IMG/VR virus record: IMGVR_UViG_3300025687_000162
Location: 1 to 34,408 of that record
DNA from: a virus
Direction: 5' to 3' (one strand)
DNA length: 34,408 nucleotides
The notes below the pieces were generated by a model that was not told the origin of the DNA, searched no databases, and saw only the letters and a program-made list of their open reading frames with translations. Made by a program: the position numbers and the translations under genes. Below, in pieces: positions 18,845 to 32,470 of this stretch (its first letter is position 1; each line of letters starts with the position of its first letter).

Positions 18845-19042
18845 TTAATAAAGACAGTTATGCCCAACCATTCCACCTTTTTTATATTTCTTCATAGAAC
18901 CACCAGCACTACGCTTATATGTATATCCTTTAGGTCCTGCAGTATTTGATCCTGACATGCCTGTGGTTTGATCATTACCATATGGATCTTTTATAGTTTT
19001 TTTCTTAGCTTTTGGTTTAGCCATTCCTGCTTTATTCATCAT
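18845..19042 (-). CDS. Small Lys/Gly-rich protein with KKGGMVGHNCLY tail (65 aa)
   Basis: It has 13 Lys, 1 Arg and only 2 acidic residues. After a basic start (MAKPKAKKKTIKDPYGNDQ) and a Gly/Ser/Thr-rich middle, it ends in SMKKYKKGGMVGHNCLY. The final KKGG-hydrophobic part is the same kind of C-terminal motif that ends several other proteins in this window, here with its own last seven residues (VGHNCLY). The start ATG 19042 has AGGGAG about nine bases upstream. An internal ATG at 19039 is possible but less well spaced. The function is unknown. Confidence 0.8.
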   Translation of the reverse strand: MMNKAGMAKPKAKKKTIKDPYGNDQTTGMSGSNTAGPKGYTYKRSAGGSMKKYKKGGMVGHNCLY

Positions 19043-19044
19043 GA

Positions 19045-19395
19045 TTATTTACTCCCTAATTTTTTATGTGTTTGAGTTTTTGGTGGACTTTTCTTGCTCC
19101 CACTCGGACCAGCCCAAAGAACTTTATCAGCCCAGTAAGCAGCAGACATTTTACCTTTTGATATGTTTTTTGCATGACGTGACTTAAACGACTTCCTAGC
19201 TGTAGGCGAGTAATTATGTCCATAACCTTTTTGACCAAAGTGGATAAGACGAATATTGTCACCCTCTTTAGCCAAGACCATACCTTTTTTATTTGGTCTA
19301 TTAGACCTTTTAGGTTTATTGAACCCTGCGAATTTTGTTCCACGATATTCTATTCCCCCTGATGGTAATCTTTTAACTCCCGGATACTTACTCAT
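19045..19395 (-). CDS. Conserved basic phage protein (116 aa)
   Basis: It contains KKGMVLAKEGDNIRLIHFGQ (about residues 36-55), then ARKSFKSRHAKN and MSAAYWADKVLW. I recall this arrangement (K...AKEGDKxxLxxFG...RRKSFRxRH...ARYW) from a small family spread over many marine phages, usually with cysteines in the H-x-C / W-x-C positions; here the cysteines are absent. It has about 21 Lys and 7 Arg against 4 acidic residues. The start ATG overlaps the upstream gene by ATGA (19395-19392 region). It is probably a nucleic-acid-associated virion or assembly protein; the function is unknown. Confidence 0.83.
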   Translation of the reverse strand: MSKYPGVKRLPSGGIEYRGTKFAGFNKPKRSNRPNKKGMVLAKEGDNIRLIHFGQKGYGHNYSPTARKSFKSRHAKNISKGKMSAAYWADKVLWAGPSGSKKSPPKTQTHKKLGSK

Positions 19396-20491: not shown

Positions 20492-20902
20492 TTATGACTT
20501 ATAGCCTCCACCTTTTGCTTTGTATTCTTTAGCAAGCATTTGTGCTTTTCGTGCAGACCACTGTCCCGGTGCTCCACCTTTACCACCTGCTTTAATACTT
20601 TCAAATAAACGTTTACGCATTGTAGGTTTAGTATAATTACCTGCTTTATTTACAGATGACTTAGGCTGACCACCAAGTGCCAGCCCTTTAGTCTTTCTAG
20701 AATAAGATCCCTTACCTTTCTTTGGTTTAACTATTTTAGGTCCATACTGCTTTTGCTCTAAGGATTTAGCCATAGGATTTTTACTTTTACCTGCAGACGA
20801 TAAGGCAATAGCCACAGCTTGTTTTTGTGGCTTGCCTTCTTTTTTTAGTTTACGAATGTTCTTACTAATTGTTTTAGAAGAACTACCCTTTTTTAATGGC
20901 AT
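20492..20902 (-). CDS. Conserved Lys/Gly-rich phage protein (136 aa)
   Basis: Two short conserved-looking segments are joined by a basic linker. The N-terminal one is [20 protein letters not shown] then [14 protein letters not shown], seen widely in phages. The C-terminal one is [20 protein letters not shown] then [12 protein letters not shown], a motif I recall from marine phages and large DNA viruses. About 31 Lys and 5 Arg face 4 Glu. The linker has a [11 protein letters not shown] stretch. No catalytic motif is visible. It belongs to the basic-protein block and could bind nucleic acid. Confidence 0.83.
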
Positions 20903-20908
20903 AGTAAT

Positions 20909-22270
20909 TTACCTTTTTGGTTTACGTGCTTTGCCCCAGCCACGCATTTGACGTGCAACTACTTCAGTCTTTTTAAGTGTAGGTGCTTTTTTAATTTTAC
21001 CGCCCTTACTCAGTTTTTTCTTTGCATAATTATATGTGCCTTGAACGATCTCACTTAAACCGGGTACATTTCTAGCTCTGCCAAATTGCTTTTCTTGATA
21101 TTTTCTACCGCCCGGATTCATTACTTCATCTATTGACCCAAGCAAAGTTTTAGTTCTATTTTGTTTTTCTTTAAGAGAACGTCCACGAATATCTCCTCTA
21201 AGAATACCACCTTTTTTAAGAGCAGGATTAGCACGACTGCTTACACCTACATTGCTACGATTTTTATTCTTTGCAGCATCAAGAAGACTTTGACCTTTTG
21301 CTAGATTACCTTGTGTTCCTGCAATTGCTGCCTTACCTGCTTTAGAACCTGTGCCACCATACATTACCATTAATGCTGCACGTTCTTCTGAACTACTAGG
21401 AAAGATATTTCCTTTAGGACCAAAGCCTGTATTTTTACCTGCATCAAAGTTTGTAGTTTCTTTCAATGGAGTTACAGGTGCTGGTTTACGTGGAGTCTTT
21501 TGATCAAACTCTTCAGCCTTTGGTTTAGGCATAGGCATAGTTTCTGCTTTACCTTTTGAAATACCTGTTGGTGAGGATTCTTTCATAACCATTGCTGCAA
21601 TTGCTGCTCTCATTGCAGGATTTAAATTTCTACGAGCAGGACTTGCAGGACGTGGTGCAGGTGTTGTTCCTTTACCAGTATTAGCTTTTGCAGGTGGTCT
21701 TATTGGTCTAGTTGTTATAATATTTTTACCTTCTGCTTTAGCTTGACCAGTTCGTACTGGTTTACGTACTGCTTGTACTGGTTTACGTACTGCTTGTACT
21801 GGTTTACGTACTGCTTGTACTGGTTTACGTACTGCTCGTACTGGTTTACGTACTGCTTGTACTTTTGTACGACTAGTACTTGTTTGTGGTTTAGGAGATC
21901 GAACAGCTTGTGCTGCTTGTTCTGCTTGTTGTACAGAAGAAGGCTTTCCACGAGAATCTGCACCTTTAATTGGTTTAAATACTTTTGGTTCATTTTTTAA
22001 TGAAGGACGTGATGGTTTTAATTTACTAACACGTTCTGCTTGCTGTGCTCTAGATGGAACAACTCTTGATCCTGCACCACTAATAGGTGTAAATGGTTTT
22101 GCTTGAGCAATCATACTTGGAGTAGGATTTTTAACTACCCTTGCATTAGGAAATTTTTTTTGAATTTGTTGAACTGTTTTTGGTCCACCTTTAGCTGCCA
22201 TATATATTGGTCTACCACCAAGACCTACCATTCTTAAAACAATTGGTGCTAAGTCTAATACTGCTTTCAT
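20909..22270 (-). CDS. Basic, Pro/Lys-rich protein with histone-H1-like heptad repeat and RGWG tail (453 aa)
   Basis: It is low in acidic residues and rich in Lys, Ala, Pro and Ser. Residues about 138-172 are five copies of the heptad AVRKPV[QR]. Flanking segments are of the KPSRPSLKNEPKVFKPI kind, and HHXX-type enzymatic motifs are absent. The C-terminus has KKLSKGGKIKKAPTLKK followed by VARQMRGWGKARKPKR, a divergent form of the RG-x-G tail found on the two proteins encoded just upstream. The composition resembles H1-like DNA-condensing proteins of bacteria. TAATG at 22270 fixes the start. A role in condensing or accompanying DNA is inferred; the family is not recognised. Confidence 0.83.
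   Translation of the reverse strand: MKAVLDLAPIVLRMVGLGGRPIYMAAKGGPKTVQQIQKKFPNARVVKNPTPSMIAQAKPFTPISGAGSRVVPSRAQQAERVSKLKPSRPSLKNEPKVFKPIKGADSRGKPSSVQQAEQAAQAVRSPKPQTSTSRTKVQAVRKPVRAVRKPVQAVRKPVQAVRKPVQAVRKPVRTGQAKAEGKNIITTRPIRPPAKANTGKGTTPAPRPASPARRNLNPAMRAAIAAMVMKESSPTGISKGKAETMPMPKPKAEEFDQKTPRKPAPVTPLKETTNFDAGKNTGFGPKGNIFPSSSEERAALMVMYGGTGSKAGKAAIAGTQGNLAKGQSLLDAAKNKNRSNVGVSSRANPALKKGGILRGDIRGRSLKEKQNRTKTLLGSIDEVMNPGGRKYQEKQFGRARNVPGLSEIVQGTYNYAKKKLSKGGKIKKAPTLKKTEVVARQMRGWGKARKPKR
21754..21858 (-). repeat. Five tandem 21-bp units coding for AVRKPV[QR] heptads
   Basis: The unit on the plus strand is gtactggtttacgtactgct plus t or c. Copies start at 21754, 21775, 21796, 21817 and 21838, and a truncated sixth begins at 21859. 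Four copies are identical and the fourth ends in c instead of t. The multiple of three keeps the frame, and the near-perfect identity indicates recent expansion. Confidence 0.93.
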
Positions 22271-22533
22271 TATTTTTTACCTTTCATTGCTTTACCATAA
22301 CCTTTTATGGCTGCTCCACAGCCACGTGGTCCTTTTTTAATTTTTCCACCCTTTTTATAAAAACCAAGATTAGATAGTTGTTCTCCTAATCCACCAAGTA
22401 TAAGTCCTGCATCAGAATAAAGATCTAACATATATGGAATTTCTACAGCAGATAAACCTGCTGCAAATTTATTAATCTTTCTTTTTTTTAATTTTTTATT
22501 AGAAGTTGGAATTGATGTTTTACTACCAGCCAT
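22270..22533 (-). CDS. Small protein with GGKI / RGCG C-terminal tag (87 aa)
   Basis: A basic N-terminus (SNKKLKKRKINK) is followed by a short hydrophobic or amphipathic middle (FAAGLSAVEIPYMLDLYSD, AGLILGGLGEQLSNLG). The tag YKKGGKIKKGPRGCGAAIKG then YGKAMKGKK fills the last third. The same tag, with few changes, ends the 352-residue protein immediately upstream. The body has no similarity to that protein that I can see. Both ends are TAATG junctions. The protein is little more than a carrier for the tag, so the tag itself may be the functional element. Confidence 0.83.
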   Translation of the reverse strand: MAGSKTSIPTSNKKLKKRKINKFAAGLSAVEIPYMLDLYSDAGLILGGLGEQLSNLGFYKKGGKIKKGPRGCGAAIKGYGKAMKGKK

Positions 22534-23591
22534 TATTTTGATCCTTTCATAGCTTTACCATATCCACGCATTGCTGCTCCACAGCCACGTGGTCTTGATC
22601 CTACCTTACCACCTTTCTTACGGTATGCATATTGTAAAGGATCTGATTTAATTCCTCGTGCTTTAGAATGAACTGTACCACGAAGTTTTTCAATAACTAA
22701 TTGTTTATTTTTTTCTGCATCTTCATTAATTTTTTTAATTTTATTATTTGCAACTTCTTCCGTAATCTTACCTTCTTTTTTTGATTGATTAACTTCTGCT
22801 CTATGTTTACGTGCAAGAGTTTCAATTTTATTAACAGCATTTTCCTGTTCTTTTTTAACTTGAGATCTAGCTTGGTTCATTGACTGCGCAGAAGTTAAAG
22901 TTTTAGGTGAAGATAATTCTTGTTTACGTTCTGCTAATTCTTTTGCAGAAGTAGGTTCACCTGCAAGTTTAGCTTTTTCAAGACGTTGACGAAATGAAGG
23001 CATCTTACGTCCTGTGCCACGTGCCTTACGAGAACCTTCACCTGCTGCTTCAGCAATCATAGATGCAGGTGGAGAATAACGACCAGTACTTTTTACTTCA
23101 TATTTGTTACCTTTTTTAACAATTTTAGCCTGACCAGTTTGAACTAAACGGCGAATAGCTTTTCTAGAATAACCTTTAAGGGAAGGATCAAGTTCTATTA
23201 ATGATGCCGGAACCATATTTAAACTTAGGTCTGTTAGTTTTTCATCTGGCTTACGTTCAACAGTAGACACCATTCTTTGTAGTTTAGGTTTTTCTGTTAA
23301 ACCTTTTTTAGCTGCATCCATTTCTTTTTTAACTTGTGCAATTAATCTACTACGCTCTGCTTTTTGTTTTGCAGTTAAATCAGAAAGTGCGCCTTTTGGT
23401 GTAGTCTCTGCACGTTTTTGAGCAGTACCCGGTTTCATTGCAGTCTTCTTTGGTTTAGGTGTACGACCTTCAGCAATGGCTTTTGCTTCCATTGTCTTCT
23501 TACGTGTAGCAGCAGCCTTTGCGTAACGTCCTTTACGTCCACGTTTAGCTGTTATCTTTACACCTTCTTTAATAATTTTACTTAATGCCAT
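22533..23591 (-). CDS. Basic Lys/Arg-rich protein with GGKV / RGCG C-terminal tag (352 aa)
   Basis: The first 100 residues are strongly basic (KITAKRGRKGRYAKAAATRK). A small folded-looking region follows (about 125-175: ASLIELDPSLKGYSRKAIRR, LVQTGQAKIVKKGNKYEV), which resembles a short helix-turn-helix plus strand. Next is a long charged helical stretch (KKEQENAVNKIETLARKHRA, then KKINEDAEKNKQLVIEKLRG). The last 28 residues are KKGGKVGSRPRGCGAAMRGY then GKAMKGSK. It lies directly after the first adaptor (TAACAATG junction) and heads the basic-protein block. DNA binding is plausible from charge. I do not recognise the whole protein. Confidence 0.83.
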   Translation of the reverse strand: MALSKIIKEGVKITAKRGRKGRYAKAAATRKKTMEAKAIAEGRTPKPKKTAMKPGTAQKRAETTPKGALSDLTAKQKAERSRLIAQVKKEMDAAKKGLTEKPKLQRMVSTVERKPDEKLTDLSLNMVPASLIELDPSLKGYSRKAIRRLVQTGQAKIVKKGNKYEVKSTGRYSPPASMIAEAAGEGSRKARGTGRKMPSFRQRLEKAKLAGEPTSAKELAERKQELSSPKTLTSAQSMNQARSQVKKEQENAVNKIETLARKHRAEVNQSKKEGKITEEVANNKIKKINEDAEKNKQLVIEKLRGTVHSKARGIKSDPLQYAYRKKGGKVGSRPRGCGAAMRGYGKAMKGSK

Positions 23592-24670: not shown

Positions 24671-25609
24671 TTATGCGCCAGCAGAACCGTAGAAACCACG
24701 CCAGTCTGACCAACCGAATGAGTAACGCTCACGAGCCTTAAAGCGAAGGTTACCTGTGTCAAAATCAGGTTCCATTTTTGTTTGCAGTGGAGCACGTACA
24801 AACATCTTAGTACCATTTGGACAATCGGTTTTAATGAACCAAGCATCTGTATCGGTAAAGCGGCGGTTAACAAAGAAACCACCCGGTACAAGACCTTGGC
24901 TACGAATGGCGTTGATGTTGTTGGTGTTAGTTGCACCGTTTGCAGCGGTGGTTGGGTTAACACCAATTGTGGTTGACATTGTGCTGTTCAGGATCTGATC
25001 AGCTGTAAATGCCAAATCTGATGGGATATGCAAAGACTTAGCTTGCAGACCAATCAGAATACCACGATCATCTTTTGCCTTAGAGATAGTAATTAGTGCG
25101 GATTCGAGTGACGCTTCCGACAGATCACCAATTAATCGGTTGCTTTGATTTCCAGCACCAATAGTTGGGTGCGAATCAGAAACCAGAGCAACACCATCAC
25201 CACCAAGGTAGGATGCGCTAAAGGCGTTATTGAAAACGTCTGCAGCTTTAACCTGCTTAGTGTTAGCCATGGCACGAGCAAGACCACGAGCACGAAGTTT
25301 AGCAAACGTGTCATAGAGATTGTCTTCCATAGCTTCTTCTGTTACAGCAAACGCCAACGCCACTGTTTCGTGGGTATAACGTGCAGTGTAACTTTCTTGT
25401 GCATCGTCATAAGAAACGGCTGCGCCTTCACCTTTAACAGGTGCAGTGCCGAAACCAGTGAAGAGCACTTCTTCTTCAAACGCACGATCTGAATTTTCAG
25501 TTTCAAAAAGCGGTGCGTGTTCATCCGAAACTTCCCCATATTCCATGCCGAAAACAGCATTAAGACCGGGAAGAAGTTCTTTAGCAATACTAGAACGATT
25601 AATAGCCAT
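24671..25609 (-). CDS. Major capsid protein, HK97-type (312 aa)
   Basis: The layout is that of Mu gpT-like and related HK97-fold capsid proteins: an N-terminal arm (MAINRSSIAKELLPGLNAVF), a strand region with GAAVSYDDAQESYTARYTHE, the long spine-helix region (VTEEAMEDNLYDTFAKLRAR, GLARAMANTKQVKAADVFNN), the SASYLGGDGVALVSDSHPT loop, and a C-terminal domain with GVNPTTAANGATNTNNINAI and a final ARERYSFGWSDWRGFYGSA strand. The GC content is a little higher than in its neighbours, usual for a highly expressed capsid gene. AAGGGAG precedes the start. A strong terminator follows, and the scaffold-like protein lies upstream, as expected. Confidence 0.93.
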   Translation of the reverse strand: MAINRSSIAKELLPGLNAVFGMEYGEVSDEHAPLFETENSDRAFEEEVLFTGFGTAPVKGEGAAVSYDDAQESYTARYTHETVALAFAVTEEAMEDNLYDTFAKLRARGLARAMANTKQVKAADVFNNAFSASYLGGDGVALVSDSHPTIGAGNQSNRLIGDLSEASLESALITISKAKDDRGILIGLQAKSLHIPSDLAFTADQILNSTMSTTIGVNPTTAANGATNTNNINAIRSQGLVPGGFFVNRRFTDTDAWFIKTDCPNGTKMFVRAPLQTKMEPDFDTGNLRFKARERYSFGWSDWRGFYGSAGA

Positions 25610-26812: not shown

Positions 26813-27772
26813 TTACTGTTTATAAATTGAAGTGTACTCACCATCGGCTCGTTCCACTTTCAATTTCTCAGCTGCATATTGTTCCAGTGGTATTCCCCAT
26901 TTATCAGCCAATCGAATGTCTTCTTTAGACAGTTTGACTTTTTTGTTAGATGAAGAGGATGTTGAAGTGCGTGATGCTCCACCAACCACTTGGGCAGGAG
27001 ATGACGTTTCCTGTTGACGTTGCGATTGTCCACCTTGAAATCTATCTGGAAATCGTTGCCGAAGTCTAGAATCAATTTCTTGGTAAAACTCTTGTTCCGA
27101 AGGATCATAACCCTCGCTTTTTAGTTCATTGTCAATTTCCAGTGCAAGAGTTGTCATGACTGAATCTTGACCAAACCAAGCATTACGTCCTGCCCACTCT
27201 ACCGCTAACCTATCATATTCTACAGGTTGAATGTTTTGAGTAGCAGTTGCTGCAACAGGTTTTTCTTTTTGAACTGGACGTTCTGTTACAAAACGCTCTT
27301 TGTTCATACGAAGCATAGTTGCTTCATTCTGTGCCTTAGAAAGATAGTCTTGTGCTTGAACAATTCTATCTGTATCACCTGATTCAAGAGCCTGACGATA
27401 TGCATCTTTTGCAATTTCAATCTGACTATTAATATTTGTTTCAGCTGTTTCAAAACTTTTTTCAACTGAAGTTTCAATTTCTTTTTGTTTATTTTTCAAT
27501 TGTTCTTCAAGTTCTTTTTGCCGTGCAATAAGTTCTTGAATTTGTTCTTCACGTTCTTTCTTTTGGCGAACTAGTTGGCGAATACGTTTCTGTGCGCCAG
27601 ACTGTTGTTCTTCCTGTTCAGGTTTTTCTTCTTCTATGTGTTCTTGAACTTGCTGTGTTGGACTTTCAGTTTGTTCTTCTTCCTGTCCTTCAATTTCAAA
27701 TTCAATTTTTTCTTCCTCTTTAACGGTATTGGAAGTATCTACCGTAGCCCATTCATTATTATCTTCGGACAT
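26813..27772 (-). CDS. Scaffold-like protein, acidic coiled coil (319 aa)
   Basis: The first 60 residues are highly acidic and Gln-rich (KEEEKIEFEIEGQEEEQTES). A strongly charged coiled coil follows (about 62-140: RQLVRQKKEREEQIQELIAR, QKELEEQLKNKQKEIE), and then a C-terminal helical region with ALEIDNELKSEGYDPSEQEF and a basic tail (about 270-319, NKKVKLSKEDIRLADKWGIP). An acidic rod with a basic C-terminal capsid-binding end, encoded upstream of the capsid gene, is the normal design of a phage scaffolding protein. AAAGGAG precedes ATG 27772. No protease domain is seen. Confidence 0.82.
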   Translation of the reverse strand: MSEDNNEWATVDTSNTVKEEEKIEFEIEGQEEEQTESPTQQVQEHIEEEKPEQEEQQSGAQKRIRQLVRQKKEREEQIQELIARQKELEEQLKNKQKEIETSVEKSFETAETNINSQIEIAKDAYRQALESGDTDRIVQAQDYLSKAQNEATMLRMNKERFVTERPVQKEKPVAATATQNIQPVEYDRLAVEWAGRNAWFGQDSVMTTLALEIDNELKSEGYDPSEQEFYQEIDSRLRQRFPDRFQGGQSQRQQETSSPAQVVGGASRTSTSSSSNKKVKLSKEDIRLADKWGIPLEQYAAEKLKVERADGEYTSIYKQ

Positions 27773-27872: not shown

Positions 27873-28289
27873 TTAATTAGAAAGATTAAAAGTTGGATCT
27901 AATTCTGTTGGATCTTCAACAACCATAGAAATTTGATCATCAAACAAAAGGATCATTCGTATCCCTTTGTAAAAAAACTTTTGACCTGTGTGTTTTCCAT
28001 AACAGACATAATCTCCCACAGAACACCAAGGACCATTCGGAAATTTATCTTTATCTTCATAGGCTGTGTCACCAATTGCTAGGACTTTGCCTACAGTTGT
28101 AAGATAAGCAATGTCATTTTTAGTTGAATCTGGTAAAATAATACCGCCCTTAGTCTGAGATTTTACAGACACAGGACGTACCAGAATATGATAACCGGGA
28201 ACTTTAGGAAGCACTTTTGGATCTGGCTGCTCTTCTGCAGAAATCCATTCGTCATTCTTCATTGCGTTTCCCATAGATACTACTTGCAT
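27873..28289 (-). CDS. GroES-like co-chaperonin (138 aa)
   Basis: Residues 28-125 follow the Cpn10 fold: the first strand PKVPGYHILVRPVSVKS, a mobile loop QTKGGIILPDST (about 45-56, with the GGI-hydrophobic motif that docks to GroEL), LTTVGKVLAIGDTAYED, a roof-like insertion DKFPNGPWCSVGDYVCYGKH, and the final strand GIRMILLFDDQISMVVED. N- and C-terminal extensions of about 27 and 15 residues are not part of typical GroES. In T4 and related phages (gp31), a phage co-chaperonin redirects host GroEL to fold the capsid protein, and its place before the head genes suggests the same here. GAGGAG precedes ATG 28289. No GroEL is encoded in the window. Confidence 0.9.
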   Translation of the reverse strand: MQVVSMGNAMKNDEWISAEEQPDPKVLPKVPGYHILVRPVSVKSQTKGGIILPDSTKNDIAYLTTVGKVLAIGDTAYEDKDKFPNGPWCSVGDYVCYGKHTGQKFFYKGIRMILLFDDQISMVVEDPTELDPTFNLSN

Positions 28290-28291
28290 AA

Positions 28292-28486
28292 TTACTCCTC
28301 TTCATTATCTTCATATACCATTGTGTTTACTAATCGTTTGATTTCTTGCTGTGACCATTCTAGTCCTGAAATCTTTCCAACGATGTTCATATACGAATGA
28401 TAGTCTGAAGCATTACCATATGCAAGCGAATTCTTTAATCCTTCAATTTCTTTTTGAAGAGAGTTTTGTATTTCTTCCCAGAGCAT
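28292..28486 (-). CDS. Small conserved acidic helical protein (64 aa)
   Basis: It is a short protein of two helices (MLWEEIQNSLQKEIEGLKNS and SYMNIVGKISGLEWSQQEIK) with an acidic end (YEDNEEE). The YGNASDYHSYMNIVGKISGL core, with Y-x-x-x-x-G-x-I-x-G, is one I recall from many phage genomes next to portal or head genes, without a known function. The start is fixed by TAATG at 28486. It is likely a small head-assembly factor. Confidence 0.82.
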   Translation of the reverse strand: MLWEEIQNSLQKEIEGLKNSLAYGNASDYHSYMNIVGKISGLEWSQQEIKRLVNTMVYEDNEEE

Positions 28487-28537
28487 TAGATACCTTTCGG
28501 TTCATAGTTATAAGGATTACGTTCTACAATAGAACCA
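28486..28537 (-). repeat. 52-base C-terminal-tag repeat, copy 1
   Basis: It matches 29316-29367 at 50 of 52 positions and lies at the 3' end of the 275-residue gene. It codes for the NPYNY tag and stop codon. Confidence 0.95.
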
Positions 28538-29313
28538 ATTTTACCACCTTCTTTACGCATAATAATATATTCATAAACAGGATGTTTTTTTCCTTTTTTA
28601 CCCATTTGTATTTCACCTATAATAGGACCAAATTCTGGTATACCTATAGTAGTTGGTCTACCATGAGGGGCTTGCCCTCTTAATTGTTCTCGGATTTTAG
28701 AACGGTCTTTACCTTTAACATTTTTTAATTTTTCTTCTAATAATGCTTCACTTTCTTCTAAAGACATTCCTTTAAATTCTGTTTTACGTTTATCATATCC
28801 TGTAAGGTTTCCACCTTTTTCATAAATAGTTTTAAGAGTATAGGCATGGCCTTCACCTTGTGGAGTAAATTTTTTAGATGGTCCTTCTACAGCAACTAAA
28901 AATCCATTATCTTGATAGCCTTCTGGAACTTTAGTCCAAAACCATCTTGCTCCATTACCTGAATCAATAAGATTTGCTTTTACTGTTACTGAACCTTTAA
29001 TTGAATTTCCTACAGGAATATCTGATGCTACATTAGGATCTACCATTAGTTTAGCATCTTTACGTAAAACCGCACCTGCAGGAGATTCTATTTCAATATA
29101 AGAACTATTTAAATTTGTTATATCATCTCCAACTATAGGTCTTTTAAGTTCAGGATCAAATCCTTCAATAGGTTTAAAAGAGCCACCAATTTGACCAGAA
29201 CGCTCTTGATTTGTATACATAACTCTTTTTAAATTACGTTCTGCTATAGGAGCAGATTGTTTAGCTGCACCTTTAGTTAAAAGTTTTACAACACTCTGTA
29301 ATCCAGCAGCCAT
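28486..29313 (-). CDS. Phage protein with GGKI / NPYNY C-terminal tag (275 aa)
   Basis: The body looks folded, with a beta-strand-rich middle (YIEIESPAGAVLRKDAKLMV, NLIDSGNGARWFWTKVPEGY, GFLVAVEGPSKKFTP), a charged helix pair (KGMSLEESEALLEEKLKNVK) and IPEFGPIIGEIQMGKKGKKH. It then ends EGGKIGSIVERNPYNYEPKG plus I. The same last 15 residues (SIVERNPYNYEPKGI) end the 219-residue protein just upstream, though their bodies differ. The ordered, enzyme-like look of the middle (R-W-F-W-T-K; GHAYTLKTIY) is striking, but I do not recognise a catalytic family. It lies between portal and co-chaperonin. Confidence 0.83.
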   Translation of the reverse strand: MAAGLQSVVKLLTKGAAKQSAPIAERNLKRVMYTNQERSGQIGGSFKPIEGFDPELKRPIVGDDITNLNSSYIEIESPAGAVLRKDAKLMVDPNVASDIPVGNSIKGSVTVKANLIDSGNGARWFWTKVPEGYQDNGFLVAVEGPSKKFTPQGEGHAYTLKTIYEKGGNLTGYDKRKTEFKGMSLEESEALLEEKLKNVKGKDRSKIREQLRGQAPHGRPTTIGIPEFGPIIGEIQMGKKGKKHPVYEYIIMRKEGGKIGSIVERNPYNYEPKGI

Positions 29314-29315
29314 AA

Positions 29316-29367
29316 TTAAATACCTTTTGGTTCATAGTTATAAGGATTACGTTCTACAATAGAACCA
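29316..29367 (-). repeat. 52-base C-terminal-tag repeat, copy 2
   Basis: It matches 28486-28537 at 50 of 52 positions, 830 bases away, at the 3' end of the 219-residue gene. The similarity stops abruptly upstream of the tag. Confidence 0.95.
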
Positions 29368-29975
29368 CCTTTTTTTCTTTCATTAACAAATTTAGGAACA
29401 AGTTTTAAATTAGAAGGTTCTTCTTTAATTAAACGATCAGAAATATCTTTTAAATTTATAATATTTTTTGGATTATTTAATTCGGGATATTTTTGTCTTA
29501 TAGCAGCATCACCATATCTTGAAAATAAACCTTTTTTTGCTAATTCATAAAAAGATATAATTCCATCTTTTGTTTTTAAAAATTTTTCATTAAAACCTTG
29601 GGATTCTAAAAAACGATTTAAAGCTGCATCATAATCATCAGTAAAACTAGATAAAAATTTTTCAAATCCTTCTTCTCCATATTCTTCAATTATTTCTTGC
29701 TCTTCAAAACTATCCTTATATTTTTTATTATATAAAGCATTAGAAAAATCTATTTTTTTTCTTACATATTTTTTATCGTCTGAAATGTCACCTAATACTT
29801 GTATTTCATCAAATTCTTTTTGTAGTGCTGGATATAATTTTTCAAATTCTTTTTTATTTAAATTTTTTATATCTACAGAATCAATAAGTTTATTAGATGT
29901 TATATTTTTAGAAGGATTATATTTTTTCTTAGTAGAACCTTTCATAATTACTTTTGCAAGTTTAACTAATGACAT
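29316..29975 (-). CDS. Lys-rich helical protein with GGS / NPYNY C-terminal tag (219 aa)
   Basis: It is highly charged and probably all-helical (KLIDSVDIKNLNKKEFEKLY, KDSFEEQEIIEEYGEEGFEK), then FYELAKKGLFSRYGDAAIRQ, ending VNERKKGGSIVERNPYNYEP plus KGI. The AT content and AAA/ATT codon use are more extreme than in most neighbours. Its body shows no similarity to the next protein, yet the last 15 residues are the same. The start shares TAATG with the portal stop at 29975. An additional protein between portal and head genes is common in phages, often hypervariable cargo. The function is unknown. Confidence 0.82.
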   Translation of the reverse strand: MSLVKLAKVIMKGSTKKKYNPSKNITSNKLIDSVDIKNLNKKEFEKLYPALQKEFDEIQVLGDISDDKKYVRKKIDFSNALYNKKYKDSFEEQEIIEEYGEEGFEKFLSSFTDDYDAALNRFLESQGFNEKFLKTKDGIISFYELAKKGLFSRYGDAAIRQKYPELNNPKNIINLKDISDRLIKEEPSNLKLVPKFVNERKKGGSIVERNPYNYEPKGI

Positions 29976-32470
29976 TACATTCCCCTTTCAGATTTAGCCT
30001 GATCAATCATCTTCATAATTACGTCTGCCGCTTTAATCGTTTCGGAGTTTTTAATGTTATCTTCTTGTTTGATAAGGTCTGCAAGGATTTCAACAGCTTT
30101 GATTGCCGTTTTTGTATTTCGATCTTTCTCTTTTTCATCTGCTTTCAGAGTTCCTTCTGCTCCTATCTTATAAGCATCCAAAGCAAGTTTTTGTTCTTTG
30201 AGATCAAGGTCACGATTTTTCAAAGCACCTTCTGTTGCTTCTTTTGCTAGTTGCGCTTGTACCTTTTGTTGTTCTATATTAAGTCGTGCAGCTTCCATCT
30301 GTACCATTTGCTGTTCTGGGCTACCACCTTGTTGTGCAGCTGCCATGTTTGCTTGCATAACTTGCTGTGCTGCTTGTGCCATAATCTGCTCAATAACTGC
30401 AGGGTTTTGCAGATTAGGATCACCCTGTGGTGCTTGCGACATAATTTGACGTGTGATGCCATTGACTTGTTCTTCATACTTCATTACAACATGTTCTTGA
30501 ATATTTGCCTGAAGCACAGGAGCAACACGTTGCATAATTGGATTACCACCATTGGCAGGATCTTGTAAGAACATTGTTTTAATCTGAATATGTGCATCAT
30601 GGTTCTGTCCTGCAAATGCTTTAATAGGTAAACCTTTAGTTGCTGCTTCAATGTCTGTTACAGGATCAAGAGGCTGTGCTTCTGGTTTGTTAGGCAGAAT
30701 ACGATCCAAATTAGGAATGTTTGCAGCACTAAGCAGTGTACGGTTTAGTTCTTCCATGTTAAACATTCCGGGTGGTGCAGTCTGCGCCAACTGCATTGCC
30801 ATCTGTGTCATCATCAAGCGGTGAGCAGATGAAGGAATGTTAGGATCACTAACAGGAATAATATCTATACGACCATCAAAGTCTGCACGGAAAATTGTTT
30901 CTGACACACCGGGAACATCGTAAGGATATTCCTGTGGTAAACTTTCATTATTAATACGTGCAAGAATACGGAATTCGTCTTTCTGTGATTTATGAAGACG
31001 TTTATGAATAGCACTGAAGAATTTACTTGATGCTTCAAGTAGTGCCATTGTTGTACCTACAGGACCATAGTTAGATCCTTCTGTAATAACTTGTTCTGTT
31101 GTGTCTGCAAACTTTTGTCCTGCGCCTGATAGAAATTGTAACATCTGGAATAATGTCTGTGAAGGTTCTTTATATGGAAGAGGGACAATAGATTTATTTA
31201 AGTCCATGCCTGTTGCTTCAACTTCTTTAAATTCACCGGGAGCAATAGGATCATTGTCACCTACGATACGTACACCTTTGGCTTTGAAACCACCGGGTAA
31301 GTTTGCAAACTGACCTGCATCAATAAGGCTACGCATTGCTGCTGTAGCAGACATAGTAATATTACCAAGGAAATGAATAAGACCAAGACCATAGAAACCA
31401 AAACCCGGAACAAAACGATAATGCGTAAAGAACATTTTCTTTTGCATGGTTTCGTCATCAGGATTCCAGTTACGGCGAATAGAAAGAACTTTTTGTGTTG
31501 ATTCTTCAATAGTTACAATGTAAGGTGCAGCAATACCAAGGTCTTCTACATCAAGATAACAATGCTGCTCAAGTAACACATACTGCATGTCTGTATCAGA
31601 CGCAGGTGAAAGACCAAGAACACTGTCCATCTTTTCTGCAAGAGCAGACTGATCGGGTAGATAAGGATCTGGTAGATCTATATCTGCATACATACCTGCA
31701 CCAATCTGACGTGCCATCTCTACAGGACTACGATATAACACATGAGTATACCTATCTGCCTGACGGAGATCTGTAGCATAGTAAGACACATAAAACTGGT
31801 CAATAGGAATGAATTCACTTACAGGACGTTGAATAGATGCATCATAGTAAATCTTTTTAAAGGCTGAACCAATCAAGGGTAAGTGGAACAGCATACGTTC
31901 AAACTCGTCAAAGTATTCAGGCATTTGCTCGGTTAATTGATAGTTCATAAAATTCTGAACTCTTGTTGCCTGACGCTGCCGTGATTCAGTGACATCACCA
32001 AGAACCTGTGCCTTTACAGGACCAGAAGCAGGGAATAGTTCTTGACTTGCCCTTGATTGGAACTTAACTGCTGATTCAATCAGCAAAGGGTGTACGGCTG
32101 TTGCTGCACCTTCAAAAGGTTCAGTTGTTTCTTCTAACTTCAGCCCAAGCAAATCAAAGCCACGCTCAAACATGGATTCCCATTCTGATCGTGAACTTTT
32201 GTCTGCTTCAAAATTATCATAGATTTGTAAACCAATAGTTGACAATGTTTCTTCGTCAAGTGTGTCAACTAAGTTTTCGTAGAATTCGTCTTCACTATCT
32301 TCTGGAAGTTCATTCATAGATGAACCTTCAAAATTAAATTCAACTTCAATCTCACCTGTGTCAGGATCAATCTCAAAGTTTACTTGTTCATTATTCATTG
32401 TAGCAAAATCAACAGGAATTACATTTGTTTCCTGTTCCATTTGCTCATTTGGATTTTTTTCTACCGCCAT
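29975..32470 (-). CDS. Portal protein (831 aa)
   Basis: It forms the dodecameric ring through which DNA enters and leaves the capsid. It begins with an acidic N-terminal region (about 1-75), then the portal core: SEWESMFERGFDLLGLKLEE, FEGAATAVHPLLIESAVKFQ, IPIDQFYVSYYATDLRQADR, HYRFVPGFGFYGLGLIHFLG, then DTTEQVITEGSNYGPVGTTM and AHRLMMTQMAMQLAQTAPPG. The C-terminal 180 residues are a Gln/Ala-rich coiled coil (EQQMVQMEAARLNIEQQKVQ), the barrel extension. It is longer than most portals (about 450-750), like the extended ones of large-barrel short-tailed phages. AGGGAA lies just upstream of ATG 32470. Confidence 0.93.
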   Translation of the reverse strand: MAVEKNPNEQMEQETNVIPVDFATMNNEQVNFEIDPDTGEIEVEFNFEGSSMNELPEDSEDEFYENLVDTLDEETLSTIGLQIYDNFEADKSSRSEWESMFERGFDLLGLKLEETTEPFEGAATAVHPLLIESAVKFQSRASQELFPASGPVKAQVLGDVTESRQRQATRVQNFMNYQLTEQMPEYFDEFERMLFHLPLIGSAFKKIYYDASIQRPVSEFIPIDQFYVSYYATDLRQADRYTHVLYRSPVEMARQIGAGMYADIDLPDPYLPDQSALAEKMDSVLGLSPASDTDMQYVLLEQHCYLDVEDLGIAAPYIVTIEESTQKVLSIRRNWNPDDETMQKKMFFTHYRFVPGFGFYGLGLIHFLGNITMSATAAMRSLIDAGQFANLPGGFKAKGVRIVGDNDPIAPGEFKEVEATGMDLNKSIVPLPYKEPSQTLFQMLQFLSGAGQKFADTTEQVITEGSNYGPVGTTMALLEASSKFFSAIHKRLHKSQKDEFRILARINNESLPQEYPYDVPGVSETIFRADFDGRIDIIPVSDPNIPSSAHRLMMTQMAMQLAQTAPPGMFNMEELNRTLLSAANIPNLDRILPNKPEAQPLDPVTDIEAATKGLPIKAFAGQNHDAHIQIKTMFLQDPANGGNPIMQRVAPVLQANIQEHVVMKYEEQVNGITRQIMSQAPQGDPNLQNPAVIEQIMAQAAQQVMQANMAAAQQGGSPEQQMVQMEAARLNIEQQKVQAQLAKEATEGALKNRDLDLKEQKLALDAYKIGAEGTLKADEKEKDRNTKTAIKAVEILADLIKQEDNIKNSETIKAADVIMKMIDQAKSERGM

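Follow-up and report, generated by a model that had tools for sequence, protein, structure and literature searches.

The ejection proteins of phages P22 and T7 are virion proteins delivered through the portal channel, and to our knowledge no shared short C-terminal tag has been described for them or for those of N4. In encapsulins, cargo-loading peptides at the C-terminus, carried on a flexible linker, dock cargo inside the protein shell. The ejection proteins of N4 are likewise virion proteins delivered through the portal channel (PMC5512222). The T4 head holds internal proteins and the ADP-ribosyltransferase (ART) Alt, and the internal proteins are targeted there by an N-terminal capsid targeting sequence (CTS) of about ten residues; the CTS of IPI-III is by itself enough to bring foreign proteins into the head, and the prohead protease gp21 cleaves it off (PMC9026906). 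Phage polyvalent proteins, found in a late-gene context with ART and peptidoglycan hydrolase domains, are thought to be packaged and injected, and some are fused to MuF or portal domains (PMC5512222). Here we analyse short C-terminal tags on late proteins of IMG/VR virus record IMGVR_UViG_3300025687_000162 (34,408 bases; the window, to whose full length all window coordinates refer). We hypothesize, with a probability of roughly 55 %, that these tags are modular recruitment signals for ejected virion cargo, and that one of them acts by mimicking the N-terminus of the portal protein.

The late operon of the window is podovirus-like and lies on the minus strand in the order terminase, portal, p219, p275, p64, a GroES-like protein, p319, p170, p203 and major capsid protein, followed by two small head or adaptor proteins, p352, p87, p453, further small basic proteins and the tail and internal virion proteins. 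Six proteins of this operon end in GG-[KSM]-[IVM] followed by one of three tails, which we define as A, B and C. Tail B (VERNPYNYEPKGI) is carried by the 219- and 275-residue proteins. The first, p219 (29316-29975, minus strand), adjoins the portal gene, has a body with no family assignment and ends in KKGGSIVERNPYNYEPKGI (tag at 29319..29375, minus strand, placed from the sequence and an IMG/VR-wide pattern scan). The second, p275 (28486-29313, minus strand), ends in KEGGKIGSIVERNPYNYEPKGI, and its tag EGGKIGSIVERNPYNYEPKGI (28489..28551, minus strand) was delimited from the sequence and its conservation in 12 homologues.

Tail A takes the forms RGCGAAxxGYGKAMKG and RGWGKARKPKR and is found on three basic proteins of 352, 87 and 453 residues, all on the minus strand. 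These are the highly basic p352 (22533-23591; +15.3 net charge per 100 residues), with C-terminal tag KKGGKVGSRPRGCGAAMRGYGKAMKGSK at 22536..22619 (sequence and motif scan); p87 (22270-22533), with KKGGKIKKGPRGCGAAIKGYGKAMKGKK at 22273..22356 (sequence and BLASTP); and p453 (20909-22270), with the A-variant KGGKIKKAPTLKKTEVVARQMRGWGKARKPKR at 20912..21007 (sequence and comparison with relatives). Within p453, VRKPVQA units form a short internal tandem repeat, and its very basic body is probably disordered. Tail C, GHNCLY, ends a small basic protein of 65 residues, p65 (18845-19042, minus strand; tag KKGGMVGHNCLY at 18848..18883, minus strand), and relatives show [GSTP]HNRLY at this place.

By BLASTP, the similarity of p219 to p275 is limited to the last 27 residues (2e-8) and that of p352 to p87 to the last 16 (1e-6), while p352 and p453 share no significant BLASTP similarity, only a 9-residue tail match. 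The GG-linked tails that the initial annotation had reported are all present in the sequence, although the coordinates it gave (22270-23591) take in p87 and p352 only and the other tagged proteins lie outside them. It had also listed an internal copy in a 604-residue protein, which is of ejection type. The motif is there (GGKI, within NTGGKIAYQSEGG), but most relatives read showed no GGK[IV] in their corresponding ejection proteins of the late operon, so this internal copy is probably unrelated to the tags.

To define the tags beyond the window, we retrieved about 160 loci surrounding the capsid and portal genes of relatives, on fragmentary contigs with simple mechanical gene calls, and sorted the C-termini into recurring kinds. 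In these relatives the A tag reads RG-x-G-x-A-x-RG-[YFG]-G-[KA]-[AV], with a shorter form RG[WFY]G[KA]AR[KR]P; the B tag is [VI]ERNPY followed by NYxx[KR]xI or GxxYQKLI; and the C tag is [GST]HNRLY or PNRLY. A fourth C-terminal kind, D, reads GGKITYRMSGGQVVDSSYD or FVASLYD. All B and C tails have the GG linker, as do 107 of 124 A tails, and [KSR][VI] comes next in most of them. We found 204 proteins tagged with A, B or C, whose bodies fall into 59 clusters by single-linkage BLAST after removal of the tails, a BLAST-level grouping in which very remote homology between some bodies is possible. Three tags on 59 body clusters correspond to what is seen with the T4-type CTS, a short conserved peptide on divergent bodies. 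The phages bearing them are an uncultured, mostly marine group.

Related motifs occur outside this set. A family of 58 to 81 residues (L016, L031, L045, L065 and others) has GRPTGQGYGAARKGP internally and not at the C-terminus. Distant relatives (L163, which is HTVC023P, L167, L169 and L257 to L327) show the further tail variants IRGVGAAIRGHKFIGVK, RGGGAAIRGKKFSGIF, ARGCGKVMSNRRKKTKIA and GRDGCAKRGRTKGRFI, and the C-termini seen in HTVC023P, an isolate with A-type tags, are IRGVGAAIRGHKFIGVK and GGGAAVRGMGFKGVF.

The position of the tags is nearly invariant. We scanned two codon-level core patterns over IMG/VR with no requirement on position, and all 48 matches to the B core VERNPYN lie exactly 13 residues ahead of a stop codon. 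For the A core RGYGKAMK, 94 of 95 matches in the retrieved loci lie 8 to 12 residues ahead of the stop codon. These counts place the tags at the C-terminus and not at the N-terminus, where a T4-type CTS is located. Of 40 B tails with the NPYN core, every one has N-Y at -7/-6 and ends in Ile, and 39 have ERNPY in place. The 12 homologues in the p275 family agree fully at 7 of the last 13 residues, compared to 34 of 262 elsewhere in the protein. The motif E[RK]NP[YFN] occurs 100 times in the 414,763 residues of the relatives compared to 0.75 times in shuffles, and in proteins below 700 residues all 20 occurrences are within the last 20 residues. Taken together, this excess and the terminal confinement indicate that the B core is not a chance pattern.

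The tags are also confined within the genome, as looked for in 13 relatives of 37 to 61 kb, each read in overlapping stretches. Clear tags are all on the late-operon strand and never on the early strand. They start about 1 kb ahead of the portal and continue to about 13 kb beyond it, and, once circular permutation of the contigs is allowed for, a second site lies some 28 to 34 kb downstream; the few regular-expression matches elsewhere are visibly chance. Tags on different bodies resemble each other more when they come from one genome than when they come from two, for A (identity 0.83 versus 0.65, permutation P 2e-4), for B (0.89 versus 0.71, P 0.01, from four within-genome pairs only) and for C (0.78 versus 0.65, P 0.013). 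Homologues retain the tags: 28 families contain two or more tagged members, and in 24 of these every member is tagged. In the p86 family the window member is untagged and relatives have an extra GGKISGHNRLY. Tags may be exchanged as well, since bodies tagged with A have homologues tagged with C in other phages (L162 and L146, 75 % identity, E 5e-23; L267 and L146, 55 %, E 2e-10), so that A and C look interchangeable. The proposal of a shared address on unrelated proteins, made from the window sequence, is therefore well supported in its core, with bodies that show no homology by BLAST either between window pairs or between the body clusters of relatives; neither of the refuting observations named in the initial annotation, full-length homology and absence of the tag from homologues, was borne out. 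A single address is not supported: there are at least three tag types, A and C swapping with each other and B sitting on different, near-neutral bodies.

The B core recurs at one other regular site. The portal protein of the window (29975..32470, minus strand; phrog_1216, 2e-39) starts with MAVEKNPNE (32444..32470, minus strand), the only regular site of the E-[RK]-N-P core outside the B tags. Out of 623 families, the core [ED][RK][ND]P[YFN] is found in nine, eight of them C-terminally tagged and the ninth the portal, in which it is invariably at the N-terminus. The portal start consensus is MA[TVI]E[RK]NP[YFN][DE]. All 85 intact portals have E-x-N-P, at positions 4-7 in 83 and after a mis-called start in the other two, while portal positions 10-20 are variable. 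A portal with ENP accompanies the B tag on 39 of 39 contigs with a readable portal start; for the A tag the count is 12 of 24 contigs (Fisher P 1e-6). None of the portal starts seen could have been matched by the B search pattern itself.

What the tags are attached to is diverse, and most tagged proteins have no assigned domain. One B-tagged body of 256 residues (L253) is a T4-type lysozyme, matching T4 lysozymes of the PDB with E 1.3e-7 over 127 residues and a PHROG tail lysozyme with 4e-12; another B-tagged protein (L225) appears transglycosylase-like when read by eye. Two B-tagged proteins, L241 and L233, are ART-like (ART-PolyVal, PF18760, E 8.8e-7), and a homologue on another contig (53 % identity, tblastn) retains the variant tail IARNPYDYEPKAI. 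L233 combines the ART-like region and an HPVYD segment in one chain; the body of p275 has the same HPVYEY-type C-terminal segment that ends this protein. A 174-residue A-tagged protein (L005) scores 60.3 bits against Pfam LysM (cutoff 20.9; 2e-16), and LysM domains are found on both A- and D-tagged bodies. The median net charge per 100 residues is strongly basic for A (+16) and C (+18) and near neutral for B (+3.7). N-termini of tagged proteins are more basic than those of controls (median net charge 4 versus 1, P 1.6e-6). A basic amphipathic start, MALSK[LI][IVL]K, is common to several tagged proteins of different body (L005, L118, L127, L128 and p352 and p219 of the window).

We propose that a component of head assembly recognises a short C-terminal peptide held out on the flexible GG-[KSR]-[VI] linker, so that proteins of unrelated body would enter the virion during its assembly and probably be delivered together with the DNA. 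We infer the virion location, the partner and the delivery into the host from sequence. Tag B (VERNPYNYxx[KR]xI-COOH) would mimic the portal start MAxE[RK]NP[YFN] and bind whatever holds that part of the portal, most plausibly p319 or the inner capsid surface. The p319 gene (26813..27772, minus strand; phrog_28737, function unknown) is a candidate by its position alone, the scaffold position upstream of the major capsid gene (24671..25609, minus strand; phrog_371, 1.5e-16). B would load near-neutral enzymes, namely the T4-type lysozyme, the transglycosylase-like protein and the ART-like proteins, while A and C would be alternative, functionally equivalent tags on very basic proteins suited to a DNA-filled capsid. 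A more specific form of this proposal is quite possible, if short of even odds: exchangeable C-terminal addresses load a fast-changing ejected arsenal (lysozymes, LysM proteins, ART-like effectors and basic proteins), one address copying the docking peptide of the portal N-terminus and thereby recruiting cargo to the portal's partner. Processing at the GG, which the initial annotation had offered as another role, is not supported, in that no prohead-type protease was recognised among the ten head-region genes of the window that were scanned; the capsid gene alone matched fused capsid-protease profiles, weakly.

Several observations weigh against virion recruitment and portal mimicry. A distant clade with MAIERGVDD portals has A tags and no proteins ending in ERGVDD, and the association of B with ENP portals could be the shared ancestry of one clade. 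In the window genome itself an EKNPN portal stands beside ERNPY tags, showing that portal and tag do not strictly covary. No isolate in the phage collection searched carries B or C, and we found no virion proteomics for this clade. The ART-PolyVal score of 30.2 bits is under the Pfam gathering cutoff of 31.2. AlphaFold2 models were too poor to use, with a mean predicted local distance difference test score of 38 for p275 (12 homologues) and 42 for the ART-like L241 (3 sequences).

We also considered that the tags of every clade mimic the portal of that clade. This failed in the MAIERGVDD clade, where no protein ends in the portal motif, and portal mimicry is thus no general rule. A profile built from the ART-like alignment matched no solved ART.

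The main alternative, which we regard as unlikely, is that the tags are partner-binding motifs of a late cytoplasmic or envelope complex and not packaging signals; such a complex might include, for instance, a phage chaperone, the host membrane or the lysis machinery. LysM, lysozyme and transglycosylase-like bodies would fit a lysis complex as well, a GroES-like gene adjoins the B-tagged genes, and the N-termini of tagged proteins are basic and somewhat more amphipathic. Such a complex leaves unexplained both the identity of the B core with the portal N-terminus and the presence of one tag on predicted ART and lysozyme alike.

Improbable, in our estimate, is an explanation at the level of DNA, in which the tails are duplicated 3' ends serving as recombination joints for gene swapping and the peptide has no role. 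The p219 and p275 tails differ by only 2 synonymous changes across 15 codons, and body turnover is cassette-like. We addressed this question by looking at codon matches at identical residues within a genome and found them raised over the codon-usage expectation for B (0.74 versus 0.47), somewhat for A (0.55 versus 0.42) and hardly for C (0.45 versus 0.42). The C peptides match while their codons differ as codon usage predicts, which makes the repeat explanation insufficient; B keeps a constant distance from the stop and a constant C-terminal Ile, and the portal copy sits at the opposite end of a gene in another context. These comparisons of sequence indicate that recent copying plays a part in B, and to some extent in A, that it fails to account for C, and that the peptide is what is kept.

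A slightly poorer candidate is that a protease of the host or the phage reads the tags, either as degrons or as ends that confer stability or protect against degradation. The fixed C-terminal position, the fixed terminal Ile of B and the many bodies would be expected here too; a match to the portal N-terminus and confinement to late genes would not. Very improbable is simple paralogy, in which the tagged proteins would have diverged from a single ancestor and changed most slowly at the C-terminus. Bodies do evolve fast and some clusters are joined by weak similarity alone, but the unrelated folds among the bodies (LysM, T4 lysozyme, ART-like), including lysozyme and ART-like bodies under the single tag B, for practical purposes exclude it, and tags swap on homologous bodies. 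Least probable of all is that the last codons are kept as the Shine-Dalgarno sequence of the next gene in tight operons: an AAGG- or AGGA-like stretch lies in the last 18 nucleotides of 49 of 61 A-tagged and 13 of 22 B-tagged genes, the following ATG mostly within about 15 nucleotides, and may add constraint on the last A codons, but none of the 29 C-tagged genes has such a stretch in its last 18 nucleotides, which refutes this as a full explanation, most NPYN-type B tags end in [KR]-A-I, and the conserved portion reaches well upstream of any such site.

The search of protein databases with the tails gave a mixed outcome. Bare tails yielded nothing useful in PHROGs and the PDB, while the IMG/VR pattern scan found many tagged proteins. 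A codon pattern for the C tag had zero matches in IMG/VR although C tags occur in loci retrieved otherwise, probably because its codons were fixed too tightly. In the isolate phage collection, tblastn with the A, B and C tags gave no match, and the GRDGCAKRGRTKGRFI variant, in cyanobacterial phage records, is the sole tag form found there by tblastn. We found no description of such C-terminal tags in the literature. A scan of genome contigs found a single portal relative in genome assemblies (L363), in a Crocinitomicaceae metagenome bin; contamination of the bin is likely and the host is not reliably given by it.

Other genes on the minus strand gave profile matches. The GroES-like co-chaperonin gene (27873-28289, minus strand; phrog_3188, 3.8e-16) lies between the B-tagged genes and the gene in scaffold position, and a GroES-like gene is annotated near the same place in HTVC023P, HTVC027P, CRP-901, Caulobacter phage RW and a Planktothrix phage. 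p136 (20492-20902, minus strand) has a 29-residue stretch above the Pfam cutoff for the ribosome-rescue factor ArfA (27.5 versus 25.5 bits), and this family is kept in relatives. p116 (19045-19395, minus strand) matches phrog_220, a minor head protein and DNA pilot, with 1.5e-18.

If the tags do recruit cargo to the virion, they would be an index of the proteins that these phages carry into cells. A search by C-terminus would then find cargo with unrecognisable bodies, some of it candidate effectors that counter host defence. The tags would further indicate a docking site used by the portal N-terminus, a poorly understood step in head assembly, and offer a short peptide with which the loading of proteins into phage heads could be tried.

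In our best explanation, the scheme would work like the T4 CTS but at the opposite end of the protein. The two have in common a short peptide on otherwise divergent proteins, and the ART-like cargo here has its likeness in Alt. Unlike the N-terminal, gp21-cleaved CTS, the tags are C-terminal and of unrelated sequence, no head protease is recognised among the ten head-region genes scanned, and B copies the portal N-terminus. With the polyvalent proteins the tagged proteins share the late-gene context and the ART-like and peptidoglycan-hydrolase-type domains; polyvalent proteins have many domains per chain, whereas here mostly separate proteins share a terminal tag, and where some polyvalent proteins are fused to a portal domain, here the portal N-terminal peptide alone is copied. 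Like the encapsulin peptides, the tags are C-terminal on a flexible linker; their sequences are different, and a shell as receptor is not indicated. For the proposed receptor of B, the P22 scaffolding protein, which drives portal ring formation and incorporation, offers an analogy that is loose because the work on it discusses binding at the wing domain rather than at the N-terminus (PMC13386823).

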